A stretch of DNA of 64,000 nt, taken from NCBI GenBank assembly GCA_002711995.1, contig PASN01000019.1, positions 124,001-188,000 on the forward strand, in the 5' to 3' direction. The position numbers were made by a program, and so were the translations under genes. This DNA comes from Halobacteriovoraceae bacterium. GTDB taxonomy: Bacteria; Bdellovibrionota; Bacteriovoracia; Bacteriovoracales; Bacteriovoracaceae. Of this stretch, positions 2,925 to 42,600 are shown piece after piece; the stretch's first letter is position 1; each line of letters starts with the position of its first letter. A model generated the notes under the pieces. That model had not been told where the DNA came from and made no database searches. It worked only from the letters and a program-made list of their open reading frames with translations.

Positions 2925-4296
2925 TGGTAAATGGTCCCCAGAGTCTTGGAGAGAGAAAGAGAAACGTCAAATTCCAGAGTATCCAGATCAAAAGAAACTG
3001 GAGGAGGTTGAGTCTACCCTTAGTGAGTATCCACCACTTGTTTTTGCCGGAGAAGCGAGGCAACTCAAGAATAGGTTGGCGCAAGTTTGCAACGGAGATG
3101 CCTTCCTTTTACAGGGGGGGGATTGTGCTGAAAGTTTCGGTGAGTTTAACTCGGCCGTAATTAGAGATAATCTTAGAATCCTTTTGCAGATGGCCGTTAT
3201 TCTAACGTTTGGAGAACAAAAGCCAGTTGTTAAGGTAGGCCGGGTCGCCGGCCAATTTGCCAAACCAAGATCTAGCGACGAAGAAACTAAAGATGGCATT
3301 ACTCTTCCGTCTTATCGCGGTGATATTATTAATGGACACCCATTTAATGAAGCGTCTAGAGTCCCCGATCCTGAGCGCATGATAAGAGGTTATGTGCAAT
3401 CATCTGCAACTATGAACCTTTTAAGAGCCCTTTCCCAAGGTGGTTATGCCGATCTTCACCAGGTTCACGCCTGGAACTTGGAATTTGTGAAAAAAAGCAG
3501 TCAGTCTAAAAGGGATGAAAAAATGGCCAATAGACTGGATGAAACACTGGCCTTTATGCAGGCAATTGGAATCACTGGAGATACAAGCCCACAAATTAGA
3601 GAGAGTGAGTTTTACACCTCACATGAGGCCTTGTTGCTCAATTATGAGCAGGCGTTGACTAGAAGAGACAGCACAACTGCAAGACCTGAGGATGGATATG
3701 AAGGGGATTGGTACGATTGTTCAGCTCATATGCTTTGGATTGGTGAAAGGACACGTCAGCCGGATGGGGCGCACGTTGAGTTTTTAAGAGGCGTAAAAAA
3801 TCCAATCGGGTTGAAATGTGGACCTACAATGACTCCTGACGACCTAATGGTCCTTGTCGATAAACTTAATCCAAGAAATGAGCCTGGTCGATTGACCCTC
3901 ATTACAAGAATGGGAGAAGACCTAATTTCCTCCAAATTAGTACACCTTATTAGGAAGATAAAGGCAGAGGGCAGAAATGTTGTGTGGAGTTGCGACCCAA
4001 TGCATGGAAACACAGTAGTTGCTCCCAATGGCTATAAAACAAGAAAATTCGAAACAATTTTAAAAGAAGTGAGAGGCTTCAATGAAGTTCACAAGGCCGA
4101 GGGCACATACGCTGGAGGGGTTCACTTTGAATTGACAGGCAAGGACGTTGTCGAATGTCTAGGTGGTGGACAGAATATCACCCATGCTGAGCTTGCTAAA
4201 GGAGCATATAAGACACTTTGCGATCCTAGACTGAATGCCACTCAAGCTCTAGAGCTTGCGTTTCAATTAGTTGAAATGGGAGATTTAGAAGAATAA
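2917..4296 (+). CDS. Class II 3-deoxy-D-arabino-heptulosonate 7-phosphate synthase
   Basis: First step of the shikimate pathway (phosphoenolpyruvate plus erythrose 4-phosphate). The ATG at 2917 is chosen because it has a GAGG site 6 nt upstream and a typical plant/actinobacterial-type N-terminus ([10 protein letters not shown]); an upstream in-frame ATG at 2869 would add 16 unlikely residues. The 459 residues carry class II signatures: [11 protein letters not shown] with the metal cysteine, [27 protein letters not shown], and late Glu and Asp metal ligands. It is the last gene of the aromatic operon. Confidence 0.92.
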
Positions 4297-4306
4297 AGTT
4301 CTGAAA

Positions 4307-4328
4307 AAAGGCCCTTAGAAGGGCCTTT
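4307..4328. terminator. Bidirectional intrinsic terminator
   Basis: Perfect 8-bp stem AAAGGCCC/GGGCCTTT with a 6-nt loop, between the converging ends of the DAHP synthase and LolA-like genes. The minus-strand transcript ends in six Ts and the plus-strand one in TTTCT, so it can serve both directions. Confidence 0.85.
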
Positions 4329-4335
4329 CTCATTA

Positions 4336-5079
4336 TTAAAAATTTTCTTTCAACTCATCGCCAAGACGAAAGTGATTAAAGTAATTGTTCTTTACCCTCT
4401 TGTTAAAAATGTGTTTAGTAATGATTGTTGTCGTTTTTTGATCAATCACATGACTTGTAACGACTGACTTCTGAGCAAACCAAACCCCAGCATCCTTTTT
4501 GAAGTCTGAGGAAACAGTTGTCTTCTCTGGCTTGCCATCAATAAAGAATTGGGCCTTCACTATAACCATCTTTTCTAAGTCAATTGTGTTGATCATTTTA
4601 GAGTAAATGTCTTTCTCTTTAGGGGTGCTCTCAATAACAGCTAAATTTCCCTTCTTTCCAACAAGTTTGTGGTTATCTTTGCTGTAGTGTCTGTTTTCCA
4701 TATCTGTGTAATAGATGTCACTGCCCACAAATCTACCTGACTTTGAAGAGCTATCAAGCCTTCTAACTTTCTTCAAAGCGGGAAGGTAGATCCATTGAGA
4801 ACTGTTTTTATTAGGGTAGTTCTTTGTAAGGAGAGAGACATTTCTAAATTTGGAAGGCTTCTGAAATTTCACAAGATTTTCCGCATCATCAATATTGTTC
4901 GTTTTACCTATCGTTACAAATTCTCTTTCAGAGTTTCTTCCAGCTCCTTCAATAATCATTTTTGCCTTGTAAATGGCAGTTGTGGGACGGTTCGCATGAT
5001 ATAGCGACTTCATGATTTTTTCCGCGTCATTTGCGAATGTTTGGGTTGCGATAATTGCAAGCAAGATAAAAAGTTTCAT
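4336..5079 (-). CDS. LolA-like outer-membrane lipoprotein-sorting family protein
   Basis: Exported 247-residue protein with an N-terminal signal peptide (cut near residue 16, TFAND). It has the LolA-like β-sheet signature of the family encoded beside MMPL exporters, including WIYLPALKKVRRL and GSDIYYTDM. It probably carries a lipid-like ligand across the periplasm; this comes from family context, and the ligand is unknown. An AAGGA site precedes the ATG. It lies 14 nt after the RND exporter gene and ends at the shared terminator. Confidence 0.75.
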   Translation of the reverse strand: MKLFILLAIIATQTFANDAEKIMKSLYHANRPTTAIYKAKMIIEGAGRNSEREFVTIGKTNNIDDAENLVKFQKPSKFRNVSLLTKNYPNKNSSQWIYLPALKKVRRLDSSSKSGRFVGSDIYYTDMENRHYSKDNHKLVGKKGNLAVIESTPKEKDIYSKMINTIDLEKMVIVKAQFFIDGKPEKTTVSSDFKKDAGVWFAQKSVVTSHVIDQKTTTIITKHIFNKRVKNNYFNHFRLGDELKENF

Positions 5080-5093
5080 AGCAACAGTCCTTT

Positions 5094-7292
5094 TTATGGT
5101 TGATGTTTAAGTTTGTAGTTAAAAAAACCTTCATGGTTTATTTTCATAAGCGCTGGCAGAAGTATTAAATCAAAAACTAGAGCGCTAAATAGACCTATTG
5201 AAGTAATAAAGCCAAAGTTTTTTAAAGGTAAAAAATCAGAGAACATTAACAGCATAAACTGGGTGCACAGAATGAATGTCGTCATTGTAATGCTTGTTCC
5301 TGATTCGCGGTAGGCCATTCTTATTCCATCATTAACACCATGAATTTCAATATTTTTCTTCATTGAGTGAAACATGTGTATTGTATCGTCCACAGCGATA
5401 CCTAGTGTTAGGCTTGAAATCATTGCTGTTCCAAAGTCCAGCCATATATTGAAAATTCCCATAAAGCCAAAGCTCATTATTATGGGGGAGAGGTTTGGAA
5501 CCATCATAAGCATTCCTGAGCCTAAACTTTTAAACAAGAGCACTAGGCAGAGGCTAACTAGACCAAAGCTTAAAACGAAGCCTTGAGTGAAGCCGCCGAT
5601 CAATAAATTTTCTTGGTCAGAGAAAAGCTTTCCACTTCCCGCCAAAGCGACTTTTAGTCCCTTTAGATTGGTGTTTTTAATAATTTCTTCAACTTTCTCT
5701 ATTTGTTTTTCTATTAAATTTGCTCTGTTCTCGGTAAGGCTTAAATTCACTCTTCCAAGGGTGCCATCCCTGTCCATGAAATCATATAGATCTTGGCCGT
5801 CATATATGAAAAGGTATTGTTCTAACATTTCACTGCTGGCAGCGTCAAAGCTTGAAAGTGAGAACTTTTTATGGAAAGTTCTTAAAACGTTTGCGAAAGA
5901 ATAAACCTTTGTCACATCTTCAAGCTTTTCTAGCTCCGCTTGCATGTTTAGTATTTCACGCATTCTATCGGCGTTTAAAAGGCTGCCTTCCTCAACTTTG
6001 AGAGATATGTCGATCGGTGTTGTTCCAACAAAATGCTTTTTAAATAGATTGTTCCCTCTGTTTAGGGCATGATCTTTAGGGAAGAATTCATAAAGACTTG
6101 ATTCAGACTCAACATATGTTCCGAAAAATCCAAAAATGCACAAGGTGGCGAGCATAAATACAGCGGTCTTTCTTGGGGCGTTCAACACTGTGGAGATCAA
6201 GAAATCCAACTTTCGCATCAACATGTCGTTAAAGGACTTTTTCTTTAACTTTACTTTGAACGTCCTCAATAGAATTGGCGAAACAAATAGAATGAATAAA
6301 ACCGATGTTATTACACCGACCCCACCGACTAGACCGATGTATCTAATTGGGGGGATAGGGCTTGCTGCAAGAGCAAATAGGCCAATAGAGGTTGTTATGC
6401 CTGAGTACATCGTGGGTTTAAATACCTTCTTCGCTGCTTCATCGTAACTGTTAAAGTCATCTTCTTCGCTGTGGTTAAGGAGGTGGATGAAGAAAGAAAT
6501 GGTAATGGCCATCATTAGACTTGGTATCATTGTGGATACCATATTATAAGGAAGCTCAAATGCGCCATAAAGTCCTATACAGACACCTGTGACAACAGTG
6601 CTTCCTATTTGTAGAACCACAATGGAGCCGATGCTTCTGAATAAAAAGAAAATTACCGCCATGGAGAAAATACTCGTTAACGGCACTACAAGGGTGAGAA
6701 CATTGATCATCTCTTCGAATTGATGGGTGTCAACGCTTAGCTCTCCGGCCGTGCCTAAAAACGTTGCGCCAGAGTCGGATAGCTTTTGAAACTCTTTTTC
6801 TATCTGAGTTTTAAGCTCGTGTCTCTGTAAAGATTCTCCAATTAAAGTTGGCTCCACCACCAATGACAAAATTTTATTATCATAATCCAGATACAAGTCC
6901 TTAGCGACTTCATCATTTTGAAGCTCTTTGAGTTCCGCCTCGAAATTGTCCACGTTGAACTCTTTCTTTACATAAACCGCATCCGCATCACCGGTTATTA
7001 CCTCATGGTCAAAAATGGATCTTATTTCCTTTACGTTTTTAACTCTTTTGGCGCGGTCGACTACCTTTTGAAACTTGGTAAGAGACTCTTTTGAAAATTC
7101 CTCCAACTGGAACATAAAGATAAAGAGCTCATCCGATCCAAACTGCTTTCGCAACTTAGCATTTAAAACATTTGAGGGCATGTCTTTTGGCAAGTAAGTT
7201 GCCGGGATGTTTGATACAATTACATCCTTTGCAAGAAAGCCTGAAAAGAGTGCGACAGCGATAAAAATCGCAATAATAAATTTGTTTTTCAT
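5094..7292 (-). CDS. RND/MMPL-family exporter
   Basis: Inner-membrane transporter of 732 residues with the two-fold RND layout. There is a first transmembrane helix (residues 4-20), a large periplasmic loop with coiled-coil character, a cluster of about five helices (about 195-345), then a repeat of helix, loop and helix cluster (about 375-725). The second half contains TLGIAVDDTIHMFHSM, a typical MMPL segment with acidic residues in the membrane. Family members move lipids or hydrophobic molecules by proton motive force. The ATG overlaps the stop of the upstream barrel gene as ATGA, and a LolA-like gene follows, so the three form one envelope transport operon. Confidence 0.85.
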   Translation of the reverse strand: MKNKFIIAIFIAVALFSGFLAKDVIVSNIPATYLPKDMPSNVLNAKLRKQFGSDELFIFMFQLEEFSKESLTKFQKVVDRAKRVKNVKEIRSIFDHEVITGDADAVYVKKEFNVDNFEAELKELQNDEVAKDLYLDYDNKILSLVVEPTLIGESLQRHELKTQIEKEFQKLSDSGATFLGTAGELSVDTHQFEEMINVLTLVVPLTSIFSMAVIFFLFRSIGSIVVLQIGSTVVTGVCIGLYGAFELPYNMVSTMIPSLMMAITISFFIHLLNHSEEDDFNSYDEAAKKVFKPTMYSGITTSIGLFALAASPIPPIRYIGLVGGVGVITSVLFILFVSPILLRTFKVKLKKKSFNDMLMRKLDFLISTVLNAPRKTAVFMLATLCIFGFFGTYVESESSLYEFFPKDHALNRGNNLFKKHFVGTTPIDISLKVEEGSLLNADRMREILNMQAELEKLEDVTKVYSFANVLRTFHKKFSLSSFDAASSEMLEQYLFIYDGQDLYDFMDRDGTLGRVNLSLTENRANLIEKQIEKVEEIIKNTNLKGLKVALAGSGKLFSDQENLLIGGFTQGFVLSFGLVSLCLVLLFKSLGSGMLMMVPNLSPIIMSFGFMGIFNIWLDFGTAMISSLTLGIAVDDTIHMFHSMKKNIEIHGVNDGIRMAYRESGTSITMTTFILCTQFMLLMFSDFLPLKNFGFITSIGLFSALVFDLILLPALMKINHEGFFNYKLKHQP

Positions 7293-13681: not shown

Positions 13682-16000
13682 CTACGCAGCTATTTTTGGA
13701 GTAATGGCGATAGAAGCGAGCACTTGATTTAACTCGCTTGCCACGTATTCGCACTGCTCTTTTGTCATATCTCCAAAGAAAGGCAAGGCCATTGTTCTCT
13801 CACCAATATTAAGGGTGTTCGGAAGCTGGTCTTCTCCTTTTGTTGGATAGTCTTTCAAGTAGGGTTGGGTATGGATCGGAGTGAAGTATGCGCGCGCCAC
13901 AATATTTCTTTCTTGCAGTTTTTTAATGACTTCGTCTCTATTTAGACCTTCGTTTAAAGTCACAACAAAGACAAACCAGCTCATTTCCACACCTGATTTT
14001 ATGGTCTGAGTCTTTAGCCAAGGTGAATCTTTGAAGGCCTCATTATACCAGGCAGCGGCCCTTTCTCTTTTTGCCAAGATTTCATCAAGCCTTTTCATTT
14101 GAACAACGCCAAGCGCAGCTTGAACTTCACTCATCCTATAGTTGTATCCAAGAACGGCGTGTTCTAGCCACTGGGACATTGTGTCTCTTCCTTGATTCAT
14201 TAGCATTCTGCATTTTCTGGCCACTTCGTCATTGTCTGTGACGATCATGCCGCCTTCGCCCGTTGTAATCTGCTTGTTAGGGTAGAAAGCAAAGCTTGCA
14301 ACATCTCCATAGTTGCCCACTTTTCTATTGTGGAGTTTGGCTCCCAGAGCTTCACAGCTGTCATCCACTAGGAATAGGTTGTGTTCGTTGCACAAGTTTT
14401 CCAGCTTATCCAAAGGAGCAGGATGTCCAAACACATCAACACTAACAATCGCTTTCGTTTTCTCTGAAATTTTGGATTCAGCGTCGCTGACATCAATGCA
14501 GTAGTCATCTTTATTTATATCAACAAAGACTGGAACAGCTCCCACATATAATATGCAATTGACGCTGGCGACAAAGGTGTAGGATGGAACAAGGACCTCA
14601 TCACCAGCGCCAACTCCCAATGCCATAAGCGCTAAGTGTAAACCTGCGGTGCCGGAGCTAACGGCGATGGCATGCTTTCTATTTGTGTATTTTGCAAAGA
14701 GCTCTTCAAATTCTTTTATCTTGGGGCCTAAGGCCAATCTTTTTGATTGCACAACTTCGAGCACCGCTTGCTCTTCTTCACTTGTAATGTCTGGCATGGC
14801 CATAGGGATGTTTAGCGCTTCTGATTTCATCGAATATTCCTTCTTCTTTTTTGAGGGAGTGCCTATCCATAGACACCCTTCACTGTTTAGATCGTTTACT
14901 ACTGTGGAGCCTGCTCCAATAACGGAATTCTTGGCCACTTTCACACCTGGCACAATTGAGCTTCCCACTCCAATCAATGATTCCGCACCTATATGGACGT
15001 TTCCGCAGAGGGTTGTTCCAGGCGCGGCGTGGACAAAGTTTTCTATGACACAGTCATGGTCAATAGAAGAATTTGTGTTAACTATGCAGTGTTCTCCGAG
15101 CTTTGTTTTTGCCTGTATTTTTGCTCCTGCAAAGATTACAGTGCCAGGGCCAACTTTCGCGCTTCTAGAGATCCAAGACTTGGGATGCCTAACCACACCA
15201 AACCTTGAGTAGCGGGTGCTCAGTTTTTTTCGAACCTCAGCTGATCCTATTGCCAAGATTACCAATGCACCTTTTGGTATCTCACTTAAGGGACGCACTT
15301 TGTGTCCATATAAGTGGGTGTTGTGCAAGTTTGTATTATCATCATAAAAACCTGCAATCTCTTTTCCAGACTCTATCGCCGCTTCGTAGACAACTTTGGC
15401 ATGCCCGCCAGCGCCTATTAGGTAGAGACGGTCACTGAGACGTTCCATCGTTTTACCCTTATCAGCATTAACATTGGAGAAGTTAAAGATTGCAAAAAAT
15501 GTCTTAAAAATTAATTTTACATCCAGCCAAAGAGAACGGTTTTCCAAATACTCAATGTCCTTTTGGAACTTATCTCTCCAAGAGAATTGGTTGCGACCAC
15601 ATACTTGAGCAAGCCCTGTTAATCCTGGAAGAACTTTGTGTCTTTGCTGTTCTTGAGAAGAAAAAAATGGCCTATATTCCACAGGTAGTGGGCGTGGGCC
15701 AACAATAGACATCTCTCCTTTGAGAATGTTTAAAATCTCTGGTAGCTCATCTATTGACAGTTTTCTTAATATTCTGCCTATTGGTGTGACCCTTTGCATG
15801 TCATCACCCTTTCCTGTGTGCATAGTGCGAAACTTTATAAGGTTGAAAGGTCTAAGGTCTTTTCCAATTCTTTGTTGACGAAAAAATATAGGTCTGCCCT
15901 GAATGACCAACAGTAAAAGGGAAGTCACCGCCATGATTGGAAGAGTGATTGGCAGACTTAAAAAAATTATAGTTAAATCCAATGCTCTTTTCTTCATCAT
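13682..16000 (-). CDS. PglC-PglD-PglE-like triple fusion: phosphoglycosyl transferase, N-acetyltransferase, aminotransferase
   Basis: 772 residues, three enzymes in one open frame. Residues 1-184 are a monotopic phosphoglycosyl transferase: membrane helix 8-33, FFRQQRIGKDLRPF, catalytic D84-E85 in SIDELPE, SIVGPRPLP. Residues about 190-385 are a PglD/NeuD-type acetyltransferase: YLIGAGGHAKVV, H315 (IDHDC) and H324, left-handed β-helix hexapeptides. Residues about 391-772 are a DegT/DnrJ/EryC1 sugar aminotransferase with Schiff-base K576 (YPNKQITTGEGG). With the upstream dehydratase this would make UDP-di-N-acetylbacillosamine and transfer its phosphosugar to undecaprenyl phosphate. Neisserial PglB is a known PglC-PglD fusion; the third domain is the unusual part. 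The start overlaps the dehydratase stop. Confidence 0.9.
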   Translation of the reverse strand: MMKKRALDLTIIFLSLPITLPIMAVTSLLLLVIQGRPIFFRQQRIGKDLRPFNLIKFRTMHTGKGDDMQRVTPIGRILRKLSIDELPEILNILKGEMSIVGPRPLPVEYRPFFSSQEQQRHKVLPGLTGLAQVCGRNQFSWRDKFQKDIEYLENRSLWLDVKLIFKTFFAIFNFSNVNADKGKTMERLSDRLYLIGAGGHAKVVYEAAIESGKEIAGFYDDNTNLHNTHLYGHKVRPLSEIPKGALVILAIGSAEVRKKLSTRYSRFGVVRHPKSWISRSAKVGPGTVIFAGAKIQAKTKLGEHCIVNTNSSIDHDCVIENFVHAAPGTTLCGNVHIGAESLIGVGSSIVPGVKVAKNSVIGAGSTVVNDLNSEGCLWIGTPSKKKKEYSMKSEALNIPMAMPDITSEEEQAVLEVVQSKRLALGPKIKEFEELFAKYTNRKHAIAVSSGTAGLHLALMALGVGAGDEVLVPSYTFVASVNCILYVGAVPVFVDINKDDYCIDVSDAESKISEKTKAIVSVDVFGHPAPLDKLENLCNEHNLFLVDDSCEALGAKLHNRKVGNYGDVASFAFYPNKQITTGEGGMIVTDNDEVARKCRMLMNQGRDTMSQWLEHAVLGYNYRMSEVQAALGVVQMKRLDEILAKRERAAAWYNEAFKDSPWLKTQTIKSGVEMSWFVFVVTLNEGLNRDEVIKKLQERNIVARAYFTPIHTQPYLKDYPTKGEDQLPNTLNIGERTMALPFFGDMTKEQCEYVASELNQVLASIAITPKIAA
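14830..14842 (-). promoter_or_regulatory. Ribosome-binding-like site at the acetyltransferase/aminotransferase junction
   Basis: AAGGAA (14837-14842) sits 8 nt upstream of the in-frame ATG for residue 391, exactly where a free PglE-like aminotransferase would begin (MKSEALNIPMAMPDIT). It could give internal initiation, or be a relic of a separate gene. Expression is not shown. Confidence 0.4.
15446..15460 (-). promoter_or_regulatory. Ribosome-binding-like site at the phosphoglycosyl transferase/acetyltransferase junction
   Basis: AAGGG (15456-15460) sits 7 nt upstream of the in-frame ATG for residue 185, where a free PglD-like protein would begin (MERLSDRLYLIGAGG). This is the best spacing possible for an internal start; use is inferred. 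Confidence 0.45.
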
Positions 16001-17178
16001 GCCGCCTCTATCTCTTTGGATTGCTCGAACAGGTCTTCGTCAAAAAGGGATTCTTGAAGTGATAAATCGCTGTCGATTGCGGCCCAGAGAAGATTGACGC
16101 TCATTTTACTATGGTTGTTGGCATAAAAAAGAATGTCGAACACCGCTTGAGATATGTCATTGTAGGGACGGCCGTTAAATACCATTGGTGTGAATGGGAT
16201 GTCTCCATCCTTTAGCGTTGCAAAGCTTTGACCATTTTTAAAGAGGTCTTCAGTATTTAGGCTAAGTTCCTCATATAGCTTCTCTCCTGGCCGTGTTCCC
16301 ACAAACTTAATAGGGTAGCTTTTGGGGTTTTTGCCGCACAGAGAAATCATTTTCTTTGCAATGTCCATGATGCGAATTGGTCTTCCCATGTTTAGAAGTG
16401 CAATATCTCCTCGATTGCATGACATACTCGAACTTAAGACGAGACCCACCGCCTCTGGTATCAACATAAAGTAACGAGTCATTCTTTCATCAGTTATGGT
16501 TAATGGTTTGTTTTTAATAATCTGTGAATGAAGTTTTGGAATGAGACTCCCACTACTGCCCGCGACGTTTCCAAATCTGACAGCGCAAAGATCGAGTCCG
16601 TGCTTATTTGCATAGTGGTTCATCATAAGCTCACAAACTCTTTTTGTGGCCCCCATGAGATTGGTGGTGCGGACTGCCTTGTCAGTGGAAATCAAGGTGA
16701 ACTTCTCTATTCCGTGTAACACGCATAGGTTTAGAATGTTTTGTGTCCCTGCTATATTGTTAACAATTCCAGCTTGGGGATTGCTTTCCACCAATGGGAC
16801 ATGTTTAAAAGCGGCAGCATGATAGATGAAATCTGGCTTGTGCTTAACGAACAAATTCTCCATTGGAGTGTATTCACAGATATTTGCCAGTGAAGGGACC
16901 AACTCAATTGAATTTTCTTCACAAACATGTGCTAGAGATTCATTTACTTTATAGAGATTGTACTCTGAGTTATCTACGAGTATTAACGTTTTGAGCTCCA
17001 TTTCGGCCAACTGATTGGCAAGCTCCGAACCAATTGAGCCTCCAGCTCCTGTTACGAGAACTGTTTTACCTTTAGTTCTAGTCCTTAGAGCTTTTAGGTC
17101 GGGTTTTTCGAAGTTTCGGCCGACAATATCCTCTAGGTCCAATTCTAGTGCACTGGGATCATTGAGTGGCTTGGTCAT
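15997..17178 (-). CDS. PglF-like UDP-sugar 4,6-dehydratase, soluble form
   Basis: 393-residue extended SDR of the CapD/PglF group, expected to form the UDP-4-keto-6-deoxy sugar used by the aminotransferase domain downstream. The Rossmann motif TGAGGSIG is at 43-50, and the catalytic block TDKAVRTTNLMGATK (T165, D166, K167, M175, K179) has Met in place of the SDR tyrosine, as in PglF-type inverting/retaining dehydratases. The four N-terminal membrane helices of full-length PglF are absent; a 35-residue polar leader replaces them. GGAG lies 6 nt before the ATG. The TGA stop overlaps the start of the triple-fusion gene. Confidence 0.87.
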   Translation of the reverse strand: MTKPLNDPSALELDLEDIVGRNFEKPDLKALRTRTKGKTVLVTGAGGSIGSELANQLAEMELKTLILVDNSEYNLYKVNESLAHVCEENSIELVPSLANICEYTPMENLFVKHKPDFIYHAAAFKHVPLVESNPQAGIVNNIAGTQNILNLCVLHGIEKFTLISTDKAVRTTNLMGATKRVCELMMNHYANKHGLDLCAVRFGNVAGSSGSLIPKLHSQIIKNKPLTITDERMTRYFMLIPEAVGLVLSSSMSCNRGDIALLNMGRPIRIMDIAKKMISLCGKNPKSYPIKFVGTRPGEKLYEELSLNTEDLFKNGQSFATLKDGDIPFTPMVFNGRPYNDISQAVFDILFYANNHSKMSVNLLWAAIDSDLSLQESLFDEDLFEQSKEIEAA

Positions 17179-17332: not shown

Positions 17333-18496
17333 ATGAAGTGTAAACAGTGTGGGGGAATATTGACTGTTAAGATAATCTTTATACTTAGCCAAGTTATCTT
17401 GGCGGTCGGAAACTGGATTCTCCTGGCCACAATAGCGAAAAATTATTCGCTGACAGAAACTGGTGACTATAATCTCGCACTCGCTTGCCTGGCACCAACC
17501 TTTTTGTTTTTCTCGTTTCATCTGAAGAATTACTTTCTGGCAAAAGACTCTTCCAATATGGAGTTTTCCCATTATGTGCATACCAGGATTTTAAGTATGG
17601 TGCTGGCGTTGGCGGTGGCGTTGGTGGCGGGAAGTGTCTTGGAAGTTGTAAATCAATTCTTTTGGGGAGTCTTTGTTCTAAAGGCCTCTGAATTAATTTT
17701 TGAATTGCCGTTTATGTACGATCATAAAATAGACAAACTCAAAAGGGCTTCTGGTAGGCATATATTAAGAAGTTTATTGGTCTATGGCTGTTTAGTATTT
17801 TTATTAGAGAGCAAAGTTGGAATATTCACCTCATTTGGAATTTCTGGTCTATTAAGCATTTTGGGAACAATCCCTTATATCCTTACTGTAAATAATCAAG
17901 ACTGGTCTTTCTCTCTTCAGAAGGTAGCCTCATTGATCAGAAGCACTTTTTGGCTTGGAGGTTCGGCCTCGCTTTTGAGTTTAAATATCTCTCTTCCAAG
18001 AATTTTTCTGGCCTACACTTTAGGAAAAGAGGCCACCGCCATTTATTCGGTCTCTTTTGCTTTTTACTCTGTTTGGCAGTTGCTCTTTAATAGTTACCTA
18101 AACTCCATACTGCCAAAGTTTACAAGCGCGAGTTTGAAAGAGAAGGTTGTAATACCTTTGGTGATCTTTATAGCGTGCTCCTTGATATTTATTAATTTCG
18201 ATACAGAAATATACAGGGTAATCTTTGGGCCTGAATACATCAAGGCCACAGAGTTAAGCCCTGGACTTCTAGGAGCAATCTTTCTGTCATTCATTAGTTC
18301 CTATTTTTTTTACGATTTCATGTCCAAGGGAAGCTTTAAAGCTCACTTTAATCTAAACCTCATTGCACTCGGCGTTCATGCCATCGTTTTATACCCCTTA
18401 ATCAAACTTATTGGCATAGAGGCCTGTTATTACTCTTGGACTCTCGCACTGATTGTGCAGTGTGGGCTCTACTGGGCTTGGAGGCCATCCTCATGA
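17333..18496 (+). CDS. Wzx-like polysaccharide flippase
   Basis: 387 residues, almost wholly hydrophobic with about 10-12 predicted membrane helices and no long soluble domain, like MATE/MOP-superfamily Wzx proteins. It probably flips undecaprenyl-linked oligosaccharide across the inner membrane; this rests on topology and on adjacent polymerase and glycosyltransferase genes. The start is uncertain: the ATG at 17333 has no ribosome site and gives an odd polar MKCKQCGG leader. A TTG at 17360 begins just before the first helix but has GGGGGA only 3 nt away. It diverges from the dehydratase gene across 154 nt. Confidence 0.7.
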   Translation: MKCKQCGGILTVKIIFILSQVILAVGNWILLATIAKNYSLTETGDYNLALACLAPTFLFFSFHLKNYFLAKDSSNMEFSHYVHTRILSMVLALAVALVAGSVLEVVNQFFWGVFVLKASELIFELPFMYDHKIDKLKRASGRHILRSLLVYGCLVFLLESKVGIFTSFGISGLLSILGTIPYILTVNNQDWSFSLQKVASLIRSTFWLGGSASLLSLNISLPRIFLAYTLGKEATAIYSVSFAFYSVWQLLFNSYLNSILPKFTSASLKEKVVIPLVIFIACSLIFINFDTEIYRVIFGPEYIKATELSPGLLGAIFLSFISSYFFYDFMSKGSFKAHFNLNLIALGVHAIVLYPLIKLIGIEACYYSWTLALIVQCGLYWAWRPSS

Positions 18497-19695
18497 GTGA
18501 TTGGTGGACAGTTTTATTGTGGACTATCTTCTCACTTGGGGTAGTCGTCTTAAAGTTAGGAAAGTCTAAGAGCAAGGACCCTATAGGATATATCCTGCTT
18601 TTCTACTTCTTTTTTGGTTTTGGACCGGTGGTGAACTATTTATTGGGCATGCCTATTTATTTTGGAATTGTAAAAGAGCATATTCCTTCTGCGGCAATGA
18701 TCATGTCTTTGGGAATTCTTAGCTTTGCTTTCCCTCACTTAATTTTCAAAGATCACTCATTGGTTCCCGATGAAAATTCTGACGAGCCCCACAGGTGGGA
18801 AGCTCTTAAAATCGCACTTATGGGAAGTATTGTATATGGTGGAGCAAAATGCCTTTTAATGCTTCCTCTTAAAGCGCAAGGAGCCACAAAGATAGAAATG
18901 ATCAGCATTGCTCTTCCACAGCTTCACTACATATACCTTCTGTTGCAGCTTTACTTTTGCGCGTTTTATTTTAGCGCAAAAAGAGTTGATGGCCTTGCAA
19001 AAATATATTGGCTCAACGTTGCGGTTTATATTGTTTACTGTTTAGTGGTTGCTGAGAGAGATTTTATTTTTCCCTTAGCATCGATATTCATAATGAAGTC
19101 GCTAGTCGAGGGCAAAAAGGTTTCGTGGCGAAAGCTTGCCTTCGGCGGAGTCTCACTAGGCGTCTTGGGAACAATTATATTCTATCTTAGGGATGGCACT
19201 CAAGAGGCCGGGAATATTGTGTCCGCCGTTCTGAGTCAGGGCTCAATTCTTTTTATTAACACTTTTGTGCTCAAGGTGTTCGAGCAAGGACATGAATTCT
19301 TTTATGGTGAGACCTTTTTAAATTCATTGATAAACCTTGCTCCAAGTTTTGTCTACAAAACCGATTATAACAATTTGGCATGGTTCAAAAATTTATACGC
19401 CCCGGCCAGTGACAGTGGGTACGGATTTGCTTTGGATGCTGAAGGTTATATTAACTTTGGATTTGCAGGAGTTGTTCTGGTTTATTTAAGCTTGGCATTC
19501 TACTGGAGAGTCCTTTTATCGAAATTTTCTTCCAGTGAGTTTTTCAGATATCTTACGTTGTTTAGCGTTGGCTTCGTTATGTATGCATTAAGAAACGATT
19601 CCTTGGCGCTTTTTAAAGGTATCCTTTACGCCATCATTATTTATCTATTCATAAATACAACATCATATTTATTAAGTATAAGGAAGAACGCATGA
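18493..19695 (+). CDS. Wzy-like O-antigen/oligosaccharide polymerase
   Basis: 400 residues from the ATG at 18493, chosen because it overlaps the flippase stop as ATGA and has GGAGG upstream; an in-frame alternative start at 18436 lies inside the flippase gene. The protein has about 10-11 membrane helices with one longer periplasmic loop (about 250-325). This is the layout of Wzy polymerases, which share little sequence. The role is assigned from topology and from position between flippase and glycosyltransferases. Confidence 0.65.
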   Translation: MSDWWTVLLWTIFSLGVVVLKLGKSKSKDPIGYILLFYFFFGFGPVVNYLLGMPIYFGIVKEHIPSAAMIMSLGILSFAFPHLIFKDHSLVPDENSDEPHRWEALKIALMGSIVYGGAKCLLMLPLKAQGATKIEMISIALPQLHYIYLLLQLYFCAFYFSAKRVDGLAKIYWLNVAVYIVYCLVVAERDFIFPLASIFIMKSLVEGKKVSWRKLAFGGVSLGVLGTIIFYLRDGTQEAGNIVSAVLSQGSILFINTFVLKVFEQGHEFFYGETFLNSLINLAPSFVYKTDYNNLAWFKNLYAPASDSGYGFALDAEGYINFGFAGVVLVYLSLAFYWRVLLSKFSSSEFFRYLTLFSVGFVMYALRNDSLALFKGILYAIIIYLFINTTSYLLSIRKNA

Positions 19696-20870
19696 GGGCC
19701 ATAGTCACTTTGGAACACAGATTCATATCTTGCGAAGGAAAACTCTACACATCAGGTGCCTTTGATCAAACCTTTTGGGAGCGCTATCTTCAAGTGTTTT
19801 CGGAAGTTTTAATAGTGGCAAGGGTGAAGAATGTTGAAAAACTAAGTGGCAAAGAGATTCGGGTGTGTTCTGACAAAATTAGGATTTATCCCTTGGATCA
19901 TTATGTTGGTTTAAAGCAAGGCCTTTTGAGTCTTCCTCGAATGAAGAGAAAACTTCAATATCTTGTGAATCACTATAGGGGCGCATTTATTCTGAGAATT
20001 GGCTCTCCAATTGCGGACCTACTTGGGCCTATGCTTAAGAAGGCCAATATACCTTATGCTGTTGAAGTTGTGGGAGATCCATGGGACGTATTCGCCAAAG
20101 GGGCCATCAATCATCCGGCTAGACCTTTCTTAAGAAGTTATTTCGCCTATAAACTAAAACAGCAGTGTGCGGCCGCAAAGTTTTCATCTTATGTTACAAA
20201 AACCGCTCTTCAGAAAAGATACCCACCAATGAATTCATTAAAAACTATAAATGCCTCCAGTATTAGCTTGAGTGAGGATTTTTTTGCGCAAAGGAGTGAT
20301 TTTGGCAGTGATAATCAAAATTGGCTTTTTGTTGGCACTTTGGAGCAATATCAAAAAGCGCCTGATGTTCTCATTAAAAGCTTCAAAATTGTTTTAGAGA
20401 AGTTTCCAAATGCTAAGTTAAACATTTTGGGGGATGGAAGAAAGAGAGCAGAACTAGAGGCGTCTGCAATCAAGCTTGGGATTGAGAATTCTGTAAAATT
20501 TCACGGCTCTGTGGCGAGTTCTAAAGAGGTTAGAGAGTATTTATTGAATTCACCATATTTTGTGCTCCCTTCAAGAGGAGAGGGTCTACCTCGGGCAATG
20601 ATTGAGGCCATGGCATGTGGCTGTGCTTGTGTAGGAAGCAATATTGGTGGCATACGAGAATTGATCGATGATAAGTGGATAGCCCAAGTGAATGATGTTG
20701 CAGACCTCGCCCAGAAAATGATTGCTCTCATGAATTTAGATGAGGAAACTAAGCTTCAAGTTTCAAGAAGGAACAACGAGGCCGCTAAAGATTACTTAGT
20801 CCATAAACTTGATAACAGAAGAATGGAGTTTTACTCCTATATTAAAAAGCATTTGGAAGAGGCGGTATGA
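19692..20870 (+). CDS. GT4-family glycosyltransferase
   Basis: 392 residues, GT-B fold. The C-terminal half shows NWLFVGTLEQYQKAPDVL, GDGRKRAELE and the nucleotide-sugar site SRGEGLPRAMIEAMACG (an EX7E motif), then GGIRELID. The N-terminal half is acceptor-specific and divergent. It probably adds a sugar to the undecaprenyl-linked unit started by the PglC-like domain. Donor and linkage cannot be read. ATGA overlap with the polymerase and a 4-nt overlap with the next glycosyltransferase show a tightly coupled operon. Confidence 0.85.
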   Translation: MRAIVTLEHRFISCEGKLYTSGAFDQTFWERYLQVFSEVLIVARVKNVEKLSGKEIRVCSDKIRIYPLDHYVGLKQGLLSLPRMKRKLQYLVNHYRGAFILRIGSPIADLLGPMLKKANIPYAVEVVGDPWDVFAKGAINHPARPFLRSYFAYKLKQQCAAAKFSSYVTKTALQKRYPPMNSLKTINASSISLSEDFFAQRSDFGSDNQNWLFVGTLEQYQKAPDVLIKSFKIVLEKFPNAKLNILGDGRKRAELEASAIKLGIENSVKFHGSVASSKEVREYLLNSPYFVLPSRGEGLPRAMIEAMACGCACVGSNIGGIRELIDDKWIAQVNDVADLAQKMIALMNLDEETKLQVSRRNNEAAKDYLVHKLDNRRMEFYSYIKKHLEEAV

Positions 20871-22015
20871 GAGTCTTACACCTGGTAAAAACCTCTGATG
20901 GCGCAAGGTGGGCGGCTGAGCAAGTTAAAGTTTTAGTGGAACTTGGCCATGAAATCGGAGTTATTCTACCACAACAGAATGGTAAAATGATGAATGCCTG
21001 GGATAAGACTGGTGCAGAGCTATTCTTTGGAAATGTCGAGCTTCCGGTTAAAAGTCCATGGGAATTTCCTTATAGAAAAGTTTTTTTGCAAAACATCGTT
21101 GAGGATTTTAAACCTGATATTATCCACTCACACTTTTTCTCCACCACATTAATGGCGCGGTATTCAACACATGTTCCCGTTGCATTTCAAGTGCCTGGCC
21201 CGCTCCATATGGAGAATGCTTTATTTAAGAAGTGGGATCTTTACAGCGCTAGGAAGCAAGATTTTTGGATCGCATCCAGTCACGCGATACGCAGTCTTTA
21301 TTTAAGTGAAGAAGTAGACGCTTCCAAGGTTGGAATGAGCTATTATGGAAACACTATCGAGGACTATTCATTGGGTGGAAAAGGCCTAAGAAGTGAGCTC
21401 TCGCTGGGGGATCGTGATTTTGTAGTAGGAAATATAAGCTATTTTTATTCTCCTAAAAAATATCTCTTTCAGACTAAAGGCCTAAAAGGACATGAAATGA
21501 TGTTTGAAGCACTCTCAAAGTTAAAGGGAGATGGGATTAAAGGTGTGTTTTGGGGTGAACAGTGGGGAGAAGGAGTAAATTACGAAAAGAAACTTCGAAG
21601 TCTAGTTCCAGAAAACTGTCTTATGCCTGGGGCGCTTGCCCCCTTTGAAGTTTCCAAAGGATGGAACACTATGGACATGTGCATGCATATGCCATTTAGT
21701 GAGAATTGTGGTGGGGTGCTTGAACCCCTGCTTCATGAGGTGCCAGTAATCGCATCAAATGTTGGTGGACTTCCAGAGCTAATTATCAATAACAAAACAG
21801 GAATACTTATAGAGAGGTGTCCTTCAGAGGCCGCCAAATCTATTAAAAAAGCAAAGAGCAATAAGATTTTGCTTAAGGATATGGCTAAGAAGGGAGCTGC
21901 ACTGGCCCGCACGGCCTTTGATGTTTCTAGAACTGCCAGAGAAATTGATCGAATTTACAAAAGTGGAGGGGAGATGGATGACAAGTCTATGTTCTTTTCC
22001 AAGGAGCGCGTATGA
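20867..22015 (+). CDS. GT4-like glycosyltransferase
   Basis: 382 residues, GT-B fold. MRVLHLVKTSDGARWAAEQ is a typical N-terminal nucleotide-fold opening for GT4. DIIHSHFFS follows, and a C-terminal ENCGGVLEPLLHEVPVIAS block corresponds to the EX7E donor-binding region, with NVGGLPELI after it. A hydrophilic tail (SGGEMDDKSMFF) follows the catalytic domain. It overlaps both neighbours by 4 nt. It is the second sugar-adding enzyme of this locus, suggesting a short repeat unit of about three sugars if no other transferases act. Confidence 0.82.
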   Translation: MRVLHLVKTSDGARWAAEQVKVLVELGHEIGVILPQQNGKMMNAWDKTGAELFFGNVELPVKSPWEFPYRKVFLQNIVEDFKPDIIHSHFFSTTLMARYSTHVPVAFQVPGPLHMENALFKKWDLYSARKQDFWIASSHAIRSLYLSEEVDASKVGMSYYGNTIEDYSLGGKGLRSELSLGDRDFVVGNISYFYSPKKYLFQTKGLKGHEMMFEALSKLKGDGIKGVFWGEQWGEGVNYEKKLRSLVPENCLMPGALAPFEVSKGWNTMDMCMHMPFSENCGGVLEPLLHEVPVIASNVGGLPELIINNKTGILIERCPSEAAKSIKKAKSNKILLKDMAKKGAALARTAFDVSRTAREIDRIYKSGGEMDDKSMFFSKERV

Positions 22016-23238
22016 AGCTTACAAGAAAGCAGTTCTTGGGGGCTACTGTAGCGGCTATATCAGGAACAATCACTCCTAGTTTGTTTGGAGCTGTAAAGGA
22101 GAAGAGAAAGATTAAGCTAAACGGGAGTTCCTTAAAAATTAAAAAATTGGTACTCAAAGACAATGACTATATTTTAGGCCCTGGTGTCGTTGAGCTAACA
22201 GGTCCTGATGCTATTGTTATACAGGGCAAAAACGTAGTTCTCGACAATGTATCGTTTAAAGCTTCCATTGGACCTAAAAAACACTCTTCGGCCATAAGGA
22301 TGCTTCAAGGCTGTGAGAATCTTACAATTAAAAACTGTGCCTTTGAAGGAGATGCATACTGTGTCTTAAAGGCCGATATCAATTCCAATAAAGATGGAGA
22401 CCTTACTTTTGACAAACCCGTTGGGCCTATAACCTTTATCAATAATTCATGCGACGGTTTTTCCAGACACATCTATTTAAGCAGCGTTTCAAGAATTAAC
22501 ATTGAAGGAAACTTCTTTAAAAACAGTGCAAGGGACTCTATTAGATTAAGACAAGGTGTCAGGAAGGTTCTCATCTCAAAAAACACTTTTGACAATGTTG
22601 GCAAAAAAACAGGAGAAAGCGCTGACGCGATAGATACCTATTGGAGTGGCGAGGAATTAATTATTTCTTCTAATATCATCAATAACTGCGCTGTTCATGG
22701 GCTAGATTTAAAGGGCATATCTCCTGATGGGAAGGGGGCAAGCTCTAAAGTCATCGTGGAAAACAACATCATAAATGGGTGTGTGTTTTCAGGAATTCTT
22801 GTTAGCTCGGGTAAAGTCCACTTGAAGAAAAAAAATAAAGTTGCCGACTTCATTATCAAGTCAAACGTTATTAAGAACTGTAATAAAAACAATAAGAACC
22901 CTAACGATGCGGCCATCTTTTTACGCCACGGCGTTCAAGGATGCATTATAAGTCTAAATCAAATTTCATCGTCTAACGGGCATGGCATCGTGCTGGGCAA
23001 CTTTGAAGAGAAGGCAGAGCAAACAAAAAACATTACAATCGCTGAAAATCAAATTGTTTCAAAGTCTGGAGACTGCGTCAGAGTGTTTGCTGCTGACAAT
23101 GTGGTGCTTGCAAGGAATATATTTGAATCTCGCAAGAACAAAGCTTCGGTAAAATTGTTTAAAAGATACAAAAGCTTTGAGCTTGCTAAGGTTTTAGAGA
23201 CAGACAATCTAGAGTCTGTCATCGATCACGAGACCTGA
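22012..23238 (+). CDS. Exported right-handed parallel β-helix protein with Tat-like signal
   Basis: 408 residues. The N-terminus TRKQFLGATVAAISG resembles a twin-arginine signal (S/T-R-R-x-F-L-K) with one Arg replaced by Lys. The remainder is a run of PbH1-type β-helix coils with repeated NNxI/NxF asparagine ladders (NLTIKNCAFEG, RINIEGNFFKN, KVLISKNTFDN, KVIVENNIINGC). Such folds occur in polysaccharide lyases, epimerases and hydrolases, so it may trim or modify the glycan. No catalytic set can be named with confidence. GGAG precedes the ATG. Its last 30 nt overlap the convergent SLBB gene. Confidence 0.75.
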   Translation: MKLTRKQFLGATVAAISGTITPSLFGAVKEKRKIKLNGSSLKIKKLVLKDNDYILGPGVVELTGPDAIVIQGKNVVLDNVSFKASIGPKKHSSAIRMLQGCENLTIKNCAFEGDAYCVLKADINSNKDGDLTFDKPVGPITFINNSCDGFSRHIYLSSVSRINIEGNFFKNSARDSIRLRQGVRKVLISKNTFDNVGKKTGESADAIDTYWSGEELIISSNIINNCAVHGLDLKGISPDGKGASSKVIVENNIINGCVFSGILVSSGKVHLKKKNKVADFIIKSNVIKNCNKNNKNPNDAAIFLRHGVQGCIISLNQISSSNGHGIVLGNFEEKAEQTKNITIAENQIVSKSGDCVRVFAADNVVLARNIFESRKNKASVKLFKRYKSFELAKVLETDNLESVIDHET

Positions 23239-39665: not shown

Positions 39666-42600
39666 TTGAACTTTAAACATTTAATTAAACTGATTCAGCT
39701 TATTGCGCTTTCCCTAGTGTCTTCATGTGTAGGCGAGCAGACCAGTCCGATTTCTCCCAATCTTGACCCGAGTATAAATCCAGTGTTCCAGGGGATTGGA
39801 CTTAATATAAAAAGCCCCACCACCAGCTCAAAGGTCTTGGATAAACTTTTCATAAGTGGCGAGTGCAGTAATTACAATTATCCCATTCAAATATCGTCCC
39901 CTTCATTAAGCAAAGTGGTTTACTCAATCTGCCAAAAAGATTTCACTTGGGCCGCCGCAATTGAAACTTCTGAAATTGAAGCTGGGGCATTCAGTGTTCG
40001 GGCACAGATCTTTAATACCGATTACACAGAAAACTCAAATATTGAGAGTGTTGAATTAATTAAAGGAGAGCAGCTCTGTTTTGAGCATAATGCGAGTGAG
40101 CTATTTGCGAACTATAAAACCGGAGGTGATGGAGACACTTCTCCATATGTAATCTGTAATCAAGAACAGTTTTCCAATATTAGATTTTTTCCAAGCAAAA
40201 GCTTTGTCCTTGGCAAGAACATTGATTTCTCAAATAAGACTATTGAACCAATTGCAATTCCTTTCAGGGGAGTCCTGGACGGTAATGGGTTTCAAATATC
40301 CAACATCGTGGTTAAAGACTTAAAAGGCAATGGCATAAGTGTGGGGCTTTTTAAGTTTGCTCATGGAGCAACTGTAAGAAATATTGCCATTAAAAATGCG
40401 CTTGTTGAAGGTTATCAGAGGGTGGGTATTCTGGCCGGTGACTGGCGAGGCACAGGGACTATTGAAAATATTAAGGTGCAGGGAAAGGTTGGAGGAGTCA
40501 GCTTCATTGGTGGACTTGTAGGGCTTGGCAACACCTCTTCAGCTTTGAATATTACCAATGCAAGTGTGGAGGTCGAGGTTGGCGGCAACAACTATGTTGG
40601 TGGACTGGTAAGCTACATAGTAACTCGCAACGGCTCATTTAATGTTAATAACTCTTACATTTTAACCAGGGTATCAGGCATTGATTATGTAGGTGGAATT
40701 GTCGGGAGATCTCTGGAGCCAAACTTTACAATCCAAAATACCGAAAGGATAGGCAACGTCAGCTCTCTTGGAAAATATGTTGGAGGCGTCGCTGGCCAGA
40801 TCCCTGGTGGTGTGATCTCAAATCTTAAAAACGTTGGGGTGGTATCAAGCTCAGTAAGCGCCGAAGATGCATTTGTAGGTGGTGTAGTAGGTGAGAGTCG
40901 AGACCTTTTAACAGTCACAGATGTGTACAGCACAACCAATATTAATGCAGGCGGGCACTATGTTGGCGGACTTGTTGGCAAGACTCACTCCTTATCTTTA
41001 ACCAGCTCGAAATTTAGAGGTAATATAGAGGTTCTGGACACAAAATATGACAGCGTCACAAAGTTTGTGGGTGGAGTTGCCGGAGGCATAAGTCTTTCTT
41101 CAAGTATAGAAGATGCAAGGTCTCATGTATCAATTGATAGCAAGTCTCAATATGTTGGTGGGCTTGTTGGAATTATGAATGGACAGTCATCCACAATCAC
41201 AGGTTCATATTATAAAGGAGAACTTTCAGCTTACACATCACACATTGGTGGTATAGCTGGAGTGTTCGGCGGCTCAATGCTTGCGAACACCTTCGCTCAG
41301 GCGAAGGTTGTGGTAACTAATCCAACACCCAACTCTTATGTCGGATTAATTGCAGGGCACAGCTCCAACAATGCTGGCGTTCATACAAGACTTTATTCAA
41401 AAGGTGATATAGAAGTTGTTGACGGCATCGCGGATTATGTTGGTGGCCTTTTTGGCTATCTTAATGGAGAAGCGCTTTCCGAGTCGTACTTTGTGGGGGA
41501 TATCAACGGGCCTAGAAGTAAAGTTGGGGGTATCGTGGGATACACCAAAGCAGACATTTCAAAGTCCTATGCCCACGCCAACCTTAATGCCAAGTTTAGA
41601 TATGTTGGATCCATAGCAGGCCTTGTCCATGAAGCAAACATATCTGATGTTTTTGCAAAAGGAACCGTTCAGGGCAAAGGTGAAGTTGGAGGTCTTGTGG
41701 GGTGGCACAATTCATTTGCTTCAAACTTAAGGCGTGGATATTTTATTGGAACGATTTCAAAGCTGGCCGGTTCAATATTTGAAGACACTACCTTTGGCAA
41801 TATTGTTGGACTTGAAGGTGTTGGAGGTTTTGAAAATGCTTTCTACGCCAACACAAACCAATTTCTAGATCACAATCTTACCCCCTTTATAGGGAACAAT
41901 GTAGGCGATCCCTTAACAATCCCACAGCTTAGAAACCCTGTGTACTACACTAACTTTAACTTTGGAGAGGATGTATGGGCCGAGCCTAGTGAAGATTTTA
42001 AGCTTCCATTTTTGATGGATGACTATCTTTATGCAAGCTTTGATTGGCTAAGAGAAATTAATCAAGGTTTTCAAATTCCTGAGGTCTTTGATCATAATCC
42101 GTTGGAGTTAAGCCATTCATCAATATTTATCCATGACAGTGATGTTTTGTCTGACTTGGACCAAGATCATTTAGATGTTATTGACACTAATGATCCTCCA
42201 TTGACAGTTTCTCCTGACAGTTTGGCAATCACTGTCGAAGCACCATCAACAAATTCTGAGGTTGTGAGCAATTTAAAGCTTGTATATGGGGAGTGTGGCA
42301 TACCTGGCAATCGAATATTGATTGGTGGGGATTTCTCAATATCTTCCGTATGTCAAAAGAACCATCGTTGGGCGGCAGTGCTTGATGTTAAGGGGCTTCC
42401 CGTGGGCACTGTTAATTTCACAGTACACATGAAGAGTTTGGATGGAACTCAAAACTCAAATATTGTTAATAAAAGTATGATCAAAAGCGATGATCTTTGC
42501 GAGCAAGAAGAGGCAATAAAAGGAACATACGCCAACTCTCATTTGGGTGGGGATGGAGCAGGAAGACCTTTTAAAATATGTCACGCCGGCCATTTTGCGA

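Follow-up and report, generated by a model that had tools for sequence, protein, structure and literature searches.

Is the open reading frame at positions 13682–16000 of this DNA really one gene for three enzymes and, if so, how did it arise and what would its product make? The frame lies in a 64,000-nt stretch of a Halobacteriovoraceae genome (contig PASN01000019.1, positions 124,001 to 188,000), called here the window, to which all coordinates refer unless another record is named.

An intact gene for a three-domain protein

A sequence-only reading of this DNA had described one frame of 772 residues at 13682–16000. The coordinates and the intactness of the frame held, although the gene runs on the minus strand, with its start ATG at 16000 and its stop ending at 13682 (772 codons, a single intact frame); the plus strand of the same interval is full of stops and noncoding. 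From its N to its C terminus, the product joins a monotopic phosphoglycosyl transferase (PGT), a PglD/NeuD-type acetyltransferase (AcT), and a DegT-type aminotransferase (AmT), as had been proposed, with Pfam placing Bac_transf, PglD_N plus hexapeptide repeats, and DegT_DnrJ_EryC1 in the one chain. Domain matches along the entire length ruled out a chance ORF. The claimed catalytic residues, D84-E85, H315, H324, and K576, were each found at the number assigned to them, and all are kept in the 772-aa product.

The PGT domain (residues 4–172; 15485..15991, minus strand) matched Pfam Bac_transf at 9e-56 and is a member of that family by its D-E dyad (D84-E85, 15746–15751) and by the PRP uridine motif in SIVGPRPLP. 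At the sequence level, alignment to PglC revealed N-terminal basic residues (the start reads MMKKR) and a hydrophobic re-entrant helix (residues 10–33) broken by P17 and P21. The nearest solved PGT structure is Campylobacter concisus PglC (8e37, 146 bits). The mobile loop, a feature linked to substrate binding (PMC12550135), is about 6 residues shorter than in PglC. The AcT domain (residues 191–384; 14849..15430, minus strand) is of the NeuD/PglB/VioB sugar N-acetyltransferase type, with PglD_N at 191–263 followed by hexapeptide repeats, and scored 191.7 bits against TIGR03570 (NeuD/PglB/VioB; cut-off 160.8). It has the left-handed beta helix, the catalytic histidine, and the acetyl-CoA histidine of the PglD/NeuD/PglB family (H315 at 15056–15058 and H324 at 15029–15031, minus strand), and its nearest PDB relatives are PerB (4ea7), Neisseria PglB (4m98), and PglD. 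The AmT domain (residues 404–757; 13730..14791, minus strand) matched the DegT/DnrJ/EryC1 family of PLP-dependent sugar aminotransferases at 7e-127 in Pfam and carries the PLP lysine, K576 (14273–14275); its nearest solved relative is the GDP-perosamine synthase 3bn1 (265 bits). AlphaFold2 modeling of the 772-aa chain on a five-row alignment gave a mean pLDDT of 49.7, too poor to judge domain packing.

A scan by short peptide patterns, covering 84,980 species with one genome each, gave one other full-length, single-frame match: JAGSHJ010000171.1 (L038), a Bacteriovoracaceae metagenome bin whose genome was listed as G001 and G372 in whole-genome searches. At 3067–5382, it encodes the same fusion, a stop-free 771-aa orthologue that is 72% identical over its full length, and it shares the neighbours, with a gene for a short dehydratase immediately upstream and one for an SRAP-domain protein downstream. 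Values of pN/pS between the two species were 0.24 (PGT), 0.40 (AcT), and 0.15 (AmT), indicating purifying selection in all three domains. An artefact of sequencing or assembly that removed a stop or shifted the frame between three genes has in its favor the draft state of both genomes and nothing more, and its probability is negligible, since an independent genome carries the same stop-free frame, differing in length by one residue and under purifying selection throughout; in practice, such an error is excluded. The earlier claim that the frame is real, which named stops or frameshifts at the junctions as its disproof, is thus borne out by the second species. As a separate observation, the AcT domain diverges much faster than its partners when 13685–16000 is compared with L038 (53% identity, vs 71% for PGT and 82% for AmT).

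Rarity and origin of the fusion

Fusions of monotopic PGTs to sugar-modifying enzymes are reportedly a common class in a published survey. Bifunctional PGTs have been confirmed as a class (PMC10942596), and the 772-aa protein falls within it, having a PGT and at least one further pathway enzyme in one chain. The three-domain architecture, in turn, was found in 2 of 129 genomes of the family, both in the window's genus. Apart from those two, it was absent from 369 genomes of the phylum, and it did not turn up in samples of 369, 395, and 398 genomes drawn from Aliidiomarina's class, from its phylum, and from the phylum to which a Flavobacteriaceae genome belongs. The genome sets searched (59, 129, 369, 369, 395, 398, and 261) overlap in part; among these about 1,500 genomes, no further PGT-AcT-AmT protein appeared beyond the two species. 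One more genome of this genus, which is 81% complete, gave no match to the fusion, perhaps because of an assembly gap. Among the best matches listed from plasmid records there was no three-domain protein, the annotated genes being separate, and the AmT domain had no match in a scan of viral contigs.

Outside the family, a PGT-AcT fusion was seen, among the genomes searched, only in the Neisseria-like G1225 and in Neisseria gonorrhoeae. One apparent PGT-AcT match with an internal stop was opened and proved to be a stop-separated gene pair. The sequence-only reading had named a common architecture as evidence against its claim and had asked for a count; the genome searches together with the 84,980-species scan yielded only L038 beyond the window, and the idea that this is a common architecture was rejected, no other instance being found across the sets searched. 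A full-text search with partial coverage of the PGT literature found no description of a PGT-AcT-AmT protein, although one might be mentioned in a survey or a supplementary table. The trifunctional PGT-AcT-AmT protein is rare but real, and it represents a variant of the bifunctional PGTs already known.

A genome of another genus in the same family, G019, carries a dehydratase gene followed by a 389-aa PGT-AcT gene and then a 370-aa AmT gene, the last two overlapping as ATGA (stop/start). All three of its domains are orthologous to those of the window, with the same dehydratase and the same order, and both the AmT tree (100/98) and the PGT tree (100/100) unite the window, L038, and G019 in one clade. 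The loci differ at the junction, where alignment of AAAAAGGATTTAGGATGAAA from G019 with AAGAAGGAATATTCGATGAAA from the window and AAGAAGGACTATTCAATGAAA from L038 showed G019 to be shifted by one base relative to the fused genes, leaving two proteins. Because G019 keeps two genes overlapping by ATGA, we infer that the fusion arose by a one-base change of frame at this overlap. In the window's genus, the change would have brought a PglB-like PGT-AcT gene and the AmT gene behind it into one frame, the stop being lost with one extra base and the old AmT ATG becoming the in-frame, internal M391. With three consecutive steps fused and an unfused relative one base away, the family offers a natural experiment on what fusion brings, be it channelling, stoichiometry, or nothing.

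Three genomes from two other families of the window's phylum encode PGT-AmT fusions, each beside a WbpM-type dehydratase gene: G152 (666 aa; L103 172–2172), G343 (591 aa; L111 6332–8107), and G358 (573 aa; L112 5633–7354). Their AmT domains belong to the window's AmT clade (100/100) and are likewise C-terminal; in contrast, these proteins lack an AcT domain, their PGT domains are not sister to that of the window, and the dehydratase is full-length where the gene is complete (635 aa in G152, 701 aa in G358), rather than short. Since parsimony on the AmT tree needs two changes of state, they look like fusions of separate origin. Being AcT-less fusions of the same AmT clade, they also indicate that the clade can serve pathways in which the amine may be left unacetylated or may be acetylated by a non-fused enzyme. 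Similar-looking glycosyltransferases stand near the PGT fusion loci of distant members of the phylum (L112 9466–10635 and window 20867–22015), a likeness that suggests a possible shared ancestral polysaccharide cluster.

The AcT-AmT junction and a candidate internal start codon

Comparison of the two fused species shows synonymous conservation to be strongest at the AcT-AmT junction, codons 384–405 (14786..14851, minus strand). Over the whole gene, the same codon is kept at 39% of identical residues (window vs L038); within the junction, it is kept at 11 of 12, where rates matched by amino acid predict 4.8 (P about 2e-4, the exact limits of the region having been set with the data in view). 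When 1,779 segments of 20 codons from five gene pairs were ranked, the junction held the top places, and the next separate region was this gene's true start. Within the junction lies the ATG of M391 (14828..14830, minus strand), which lines up with the start of the separate AmT gene in G019, is the ancestral AmT start codon, and is a candidate second start. In both fused species, AAGGA (14838..14842, minus strand), a candidate ribosome-binding site, stands 7 nt before this ATG; the motif occurs at such a distance ahead of 7 of 349 in-frame internal ATGs (2%), compared with 6 of the 43 presumed gene starts in the window. In the two species, 96% and 98% of segments of the gene have stronger RNA structure than the surroundings of M391. 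Shine-Dalgarno pairing at M391 is moderate, with 15% of codons as strong by unconstrained duplex energy.

These features raise the alternative that the one gene has two products, the full-length protein and a free AmT of 382 aa started at M391, and we judge the arguments for and against it to be evenly balanced. Relatives of the AcT are trimers and relatives of the AmT are dimers, so that free AmT would ease a mismatch between the two parts of the chain. Most transamination may then be performed by free dimers, the fusion serving mainly to set a lower limit on the local amount at the membrane. However, the comparison comprises two sequences only, the Shine-Dalgarno match is not exceptional, the edges of the region behind the P value were set afterwards, and a conserved run this short may be due to chance, to gene conversion, or to an effect on pausing in translation. 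A second product is compatible with the main explanation, in which the fused chain acts at the membrane, but it changes the mechanism. Somewhat more tentatively, at a little below an even chance, we suggest that the gene has kept its ancestral ribosome-binding site and start under selection, and that one message would thereby give both the three-enzyme chain and a free AmT able to assemble with it. Of the new points, the apparently retained internal start is the most interesting and, if true, would provide a testable case of a new fusion solving a trimer-dimer mismatch between its parts.

Predicted pathway and comparison with known systems

Our preferred explanation, which we hold with good though not full confidence, is that the protein is bound to the membrane and, as a trifunctional enzyme, carries out the final three steps in priming a surface glycan, giving an Und-PP-linked diacetamido-trideoxyhexose. 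The first step appears to be supplied by the overlapping upstream gene, which the sequence-only reading had missed. This gene (15997..17178, minus strand; Pfam Polysacc_synt_2, 1e-99) encodes a short, soluble UDP-GlcNAc 4,6-dehydratase of the PglF/WbpM type (393 aa), lies directly upstream of the fusion gene with an ATGA overlap, and is also present in L038 and G019. In its motif, STDKAVRTTNLMGATKR (TDK...M...K), Met replaces Tyr. The three genomes of the family that have a PGT-AcT fusion all encode a dehydratase that starts at its catalytic domain with no N-terminal membrane part, and the membrane anchor is thus found only in the PGT domain.

The dehydratase would convert UDP-GlcNAc to the UDP-4-keto-6-deoxy sugar, the C-terminal AmT domain would aminate C4, the middle left-handed beta-helix AcT domain would use acetyl-CoA to acetylate the C4 amine, and the N-terminal re-entrant-helix PGT would transfer the phosphosugar to undecaprenyl phosphate. 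The product would be an Und-PP-linked 2,4-diacetamido-2,4,6-trideoxyhexose, most likely diNAcBac. This order of reactions agrees with the earlier statement that it is opposite to the order of domains. We infer the substrates, the reaction order, and any channelling from sequence; channelling between the domains is speculation. The dehydratase and the fusion, two genes, would suffice to lead from UDP-GlcNAc to the Und-PP-linked 2,4-diacetamido-trideoxyhexose.

Divergent polysaccharide genes (17333..22015, plus strand) encode flippase-like and polymerase-like membrane proteins, followed by two glycosyltransferases (Glycos_transf_1); the first two were named by look and position only, having no Pfam match, and the flippase-like gene also occurs in L038 and G019. 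Since glycosyltransferases and a putative flippase and polymerase lie nearby, the fusion more likely primes a surface polysaccharide than serves protein glycosylation. Two further observations concern the region: a right-handed beta-helix protein ends the glycosyltransferase operon (22012–23238), its gene overlapping at the end an opposite-strand SLBB-domain gene, and 39666–47774 encodes a lipoprotein-like protein of 2,702 aa with two long runs of short, VGGLVG-like repeats and two similar C-terminal domains.

The identity of the sugar is less firm. The fusion had been described as PglC-PglD-PglE-like, and the domain classes do match, but the trees do not place the AmT with strict PglE or Neisseria PglC, nor the PGT with PglC/PglB. 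In the AmT tree, the window's domain belongs to a strongly supported clade (100/100), separate both from Neisseria PglC and from a second clade that we take to be PglE-like by an N-terminal sequence signature, and in the sequence set used the window's clade contained no enzyme of known substrate; no grouping with the characterized UDP-diNAcBac aminotransferases, PglE and Neisseria PglC, was thus seen in this tree, the PglE-like clade being recognized from that signature only. The known UDP-bacillosamine aminotransferases are likewise scattered; against 4ztc, presumably C. jejuni PglE, Neisseria PglC scored 107 bits and the window's AmT domain 163 bits. In the PGT tree, the long branch of the window's domain falls outside the group that contains C. 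concisus PglC and N. gonorrhoeae PglB (95/85), and no grouping with the characterized diNAcBac-specific PGTs (PglC, PglB, EpsL) was found there. Because both domains group apart from the characterized diNAcBac enzymes, UDP-diNAcBac is proposed with reserve.

The same chain could instead make a different sugar, such as the C4 epimer 2,4-diacetamido-2,4,6-trideoxygalactose, through the opposite stereochemistry at the AmT. Besides the two trees, the best NCBIfam matches of the AmT (PseC, the LegC family, ArnB), all below their cut-offs, and the related PGT-AmT fusions without an AcT domain speak for this. However, the nearest solved structures are GDP-perosamine synthase for the AmT and PglC for the PGT, and the solved AcT relatives PglD, PglB, PerB, and VioB take as substrates 6-deoxy sugar nucleotides with an equatorial 4-amine, which favors a D-gluco sugar. 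On balance, the different sugar appears possible but the less probable outcome, and diNAcBac is slightly favored as the most likely product.

Fusions of PGTs are read as evidence that the makers of a sugar nucleotide work together with the enzyme that commits it to the membrane and, if our preferred explanation is true, the window holds a two-gene kit leading from UDP-GlcNAc to a lipid-linked diacetamido sugar. As the sequence-only reading had said, Neisseria fuses only two of the three enzymes, with a PglB of 418 aa and a separate aminotransferase (PMC11130364). In Neisseria, the same pathway is divided among PglB, PglC, and PglD. Neisseria PglB likewise places PGT before AcT with almost no linker, is 40% identical over window residues 4–384, and has AmT (PglC) and dehydratase (PglD) genes adjacent to it; it differs from the window in that the AmT is a separate protein of another clade and the dehydratase, of 635 aa, has a membrane part. 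The diNAcBac pathways of Campylobacter (PglF-PglE-PglD-PglC) and Bacillus (EpsC-EpsN-EpsM-EpsL) comprise four reaction classes (PMC10653937). The same four, dehydration, transamination, acetylation, and phosphosugar transfer, are predicted for the window, where two genes would encode what those bacteria divide among four separate proteins.
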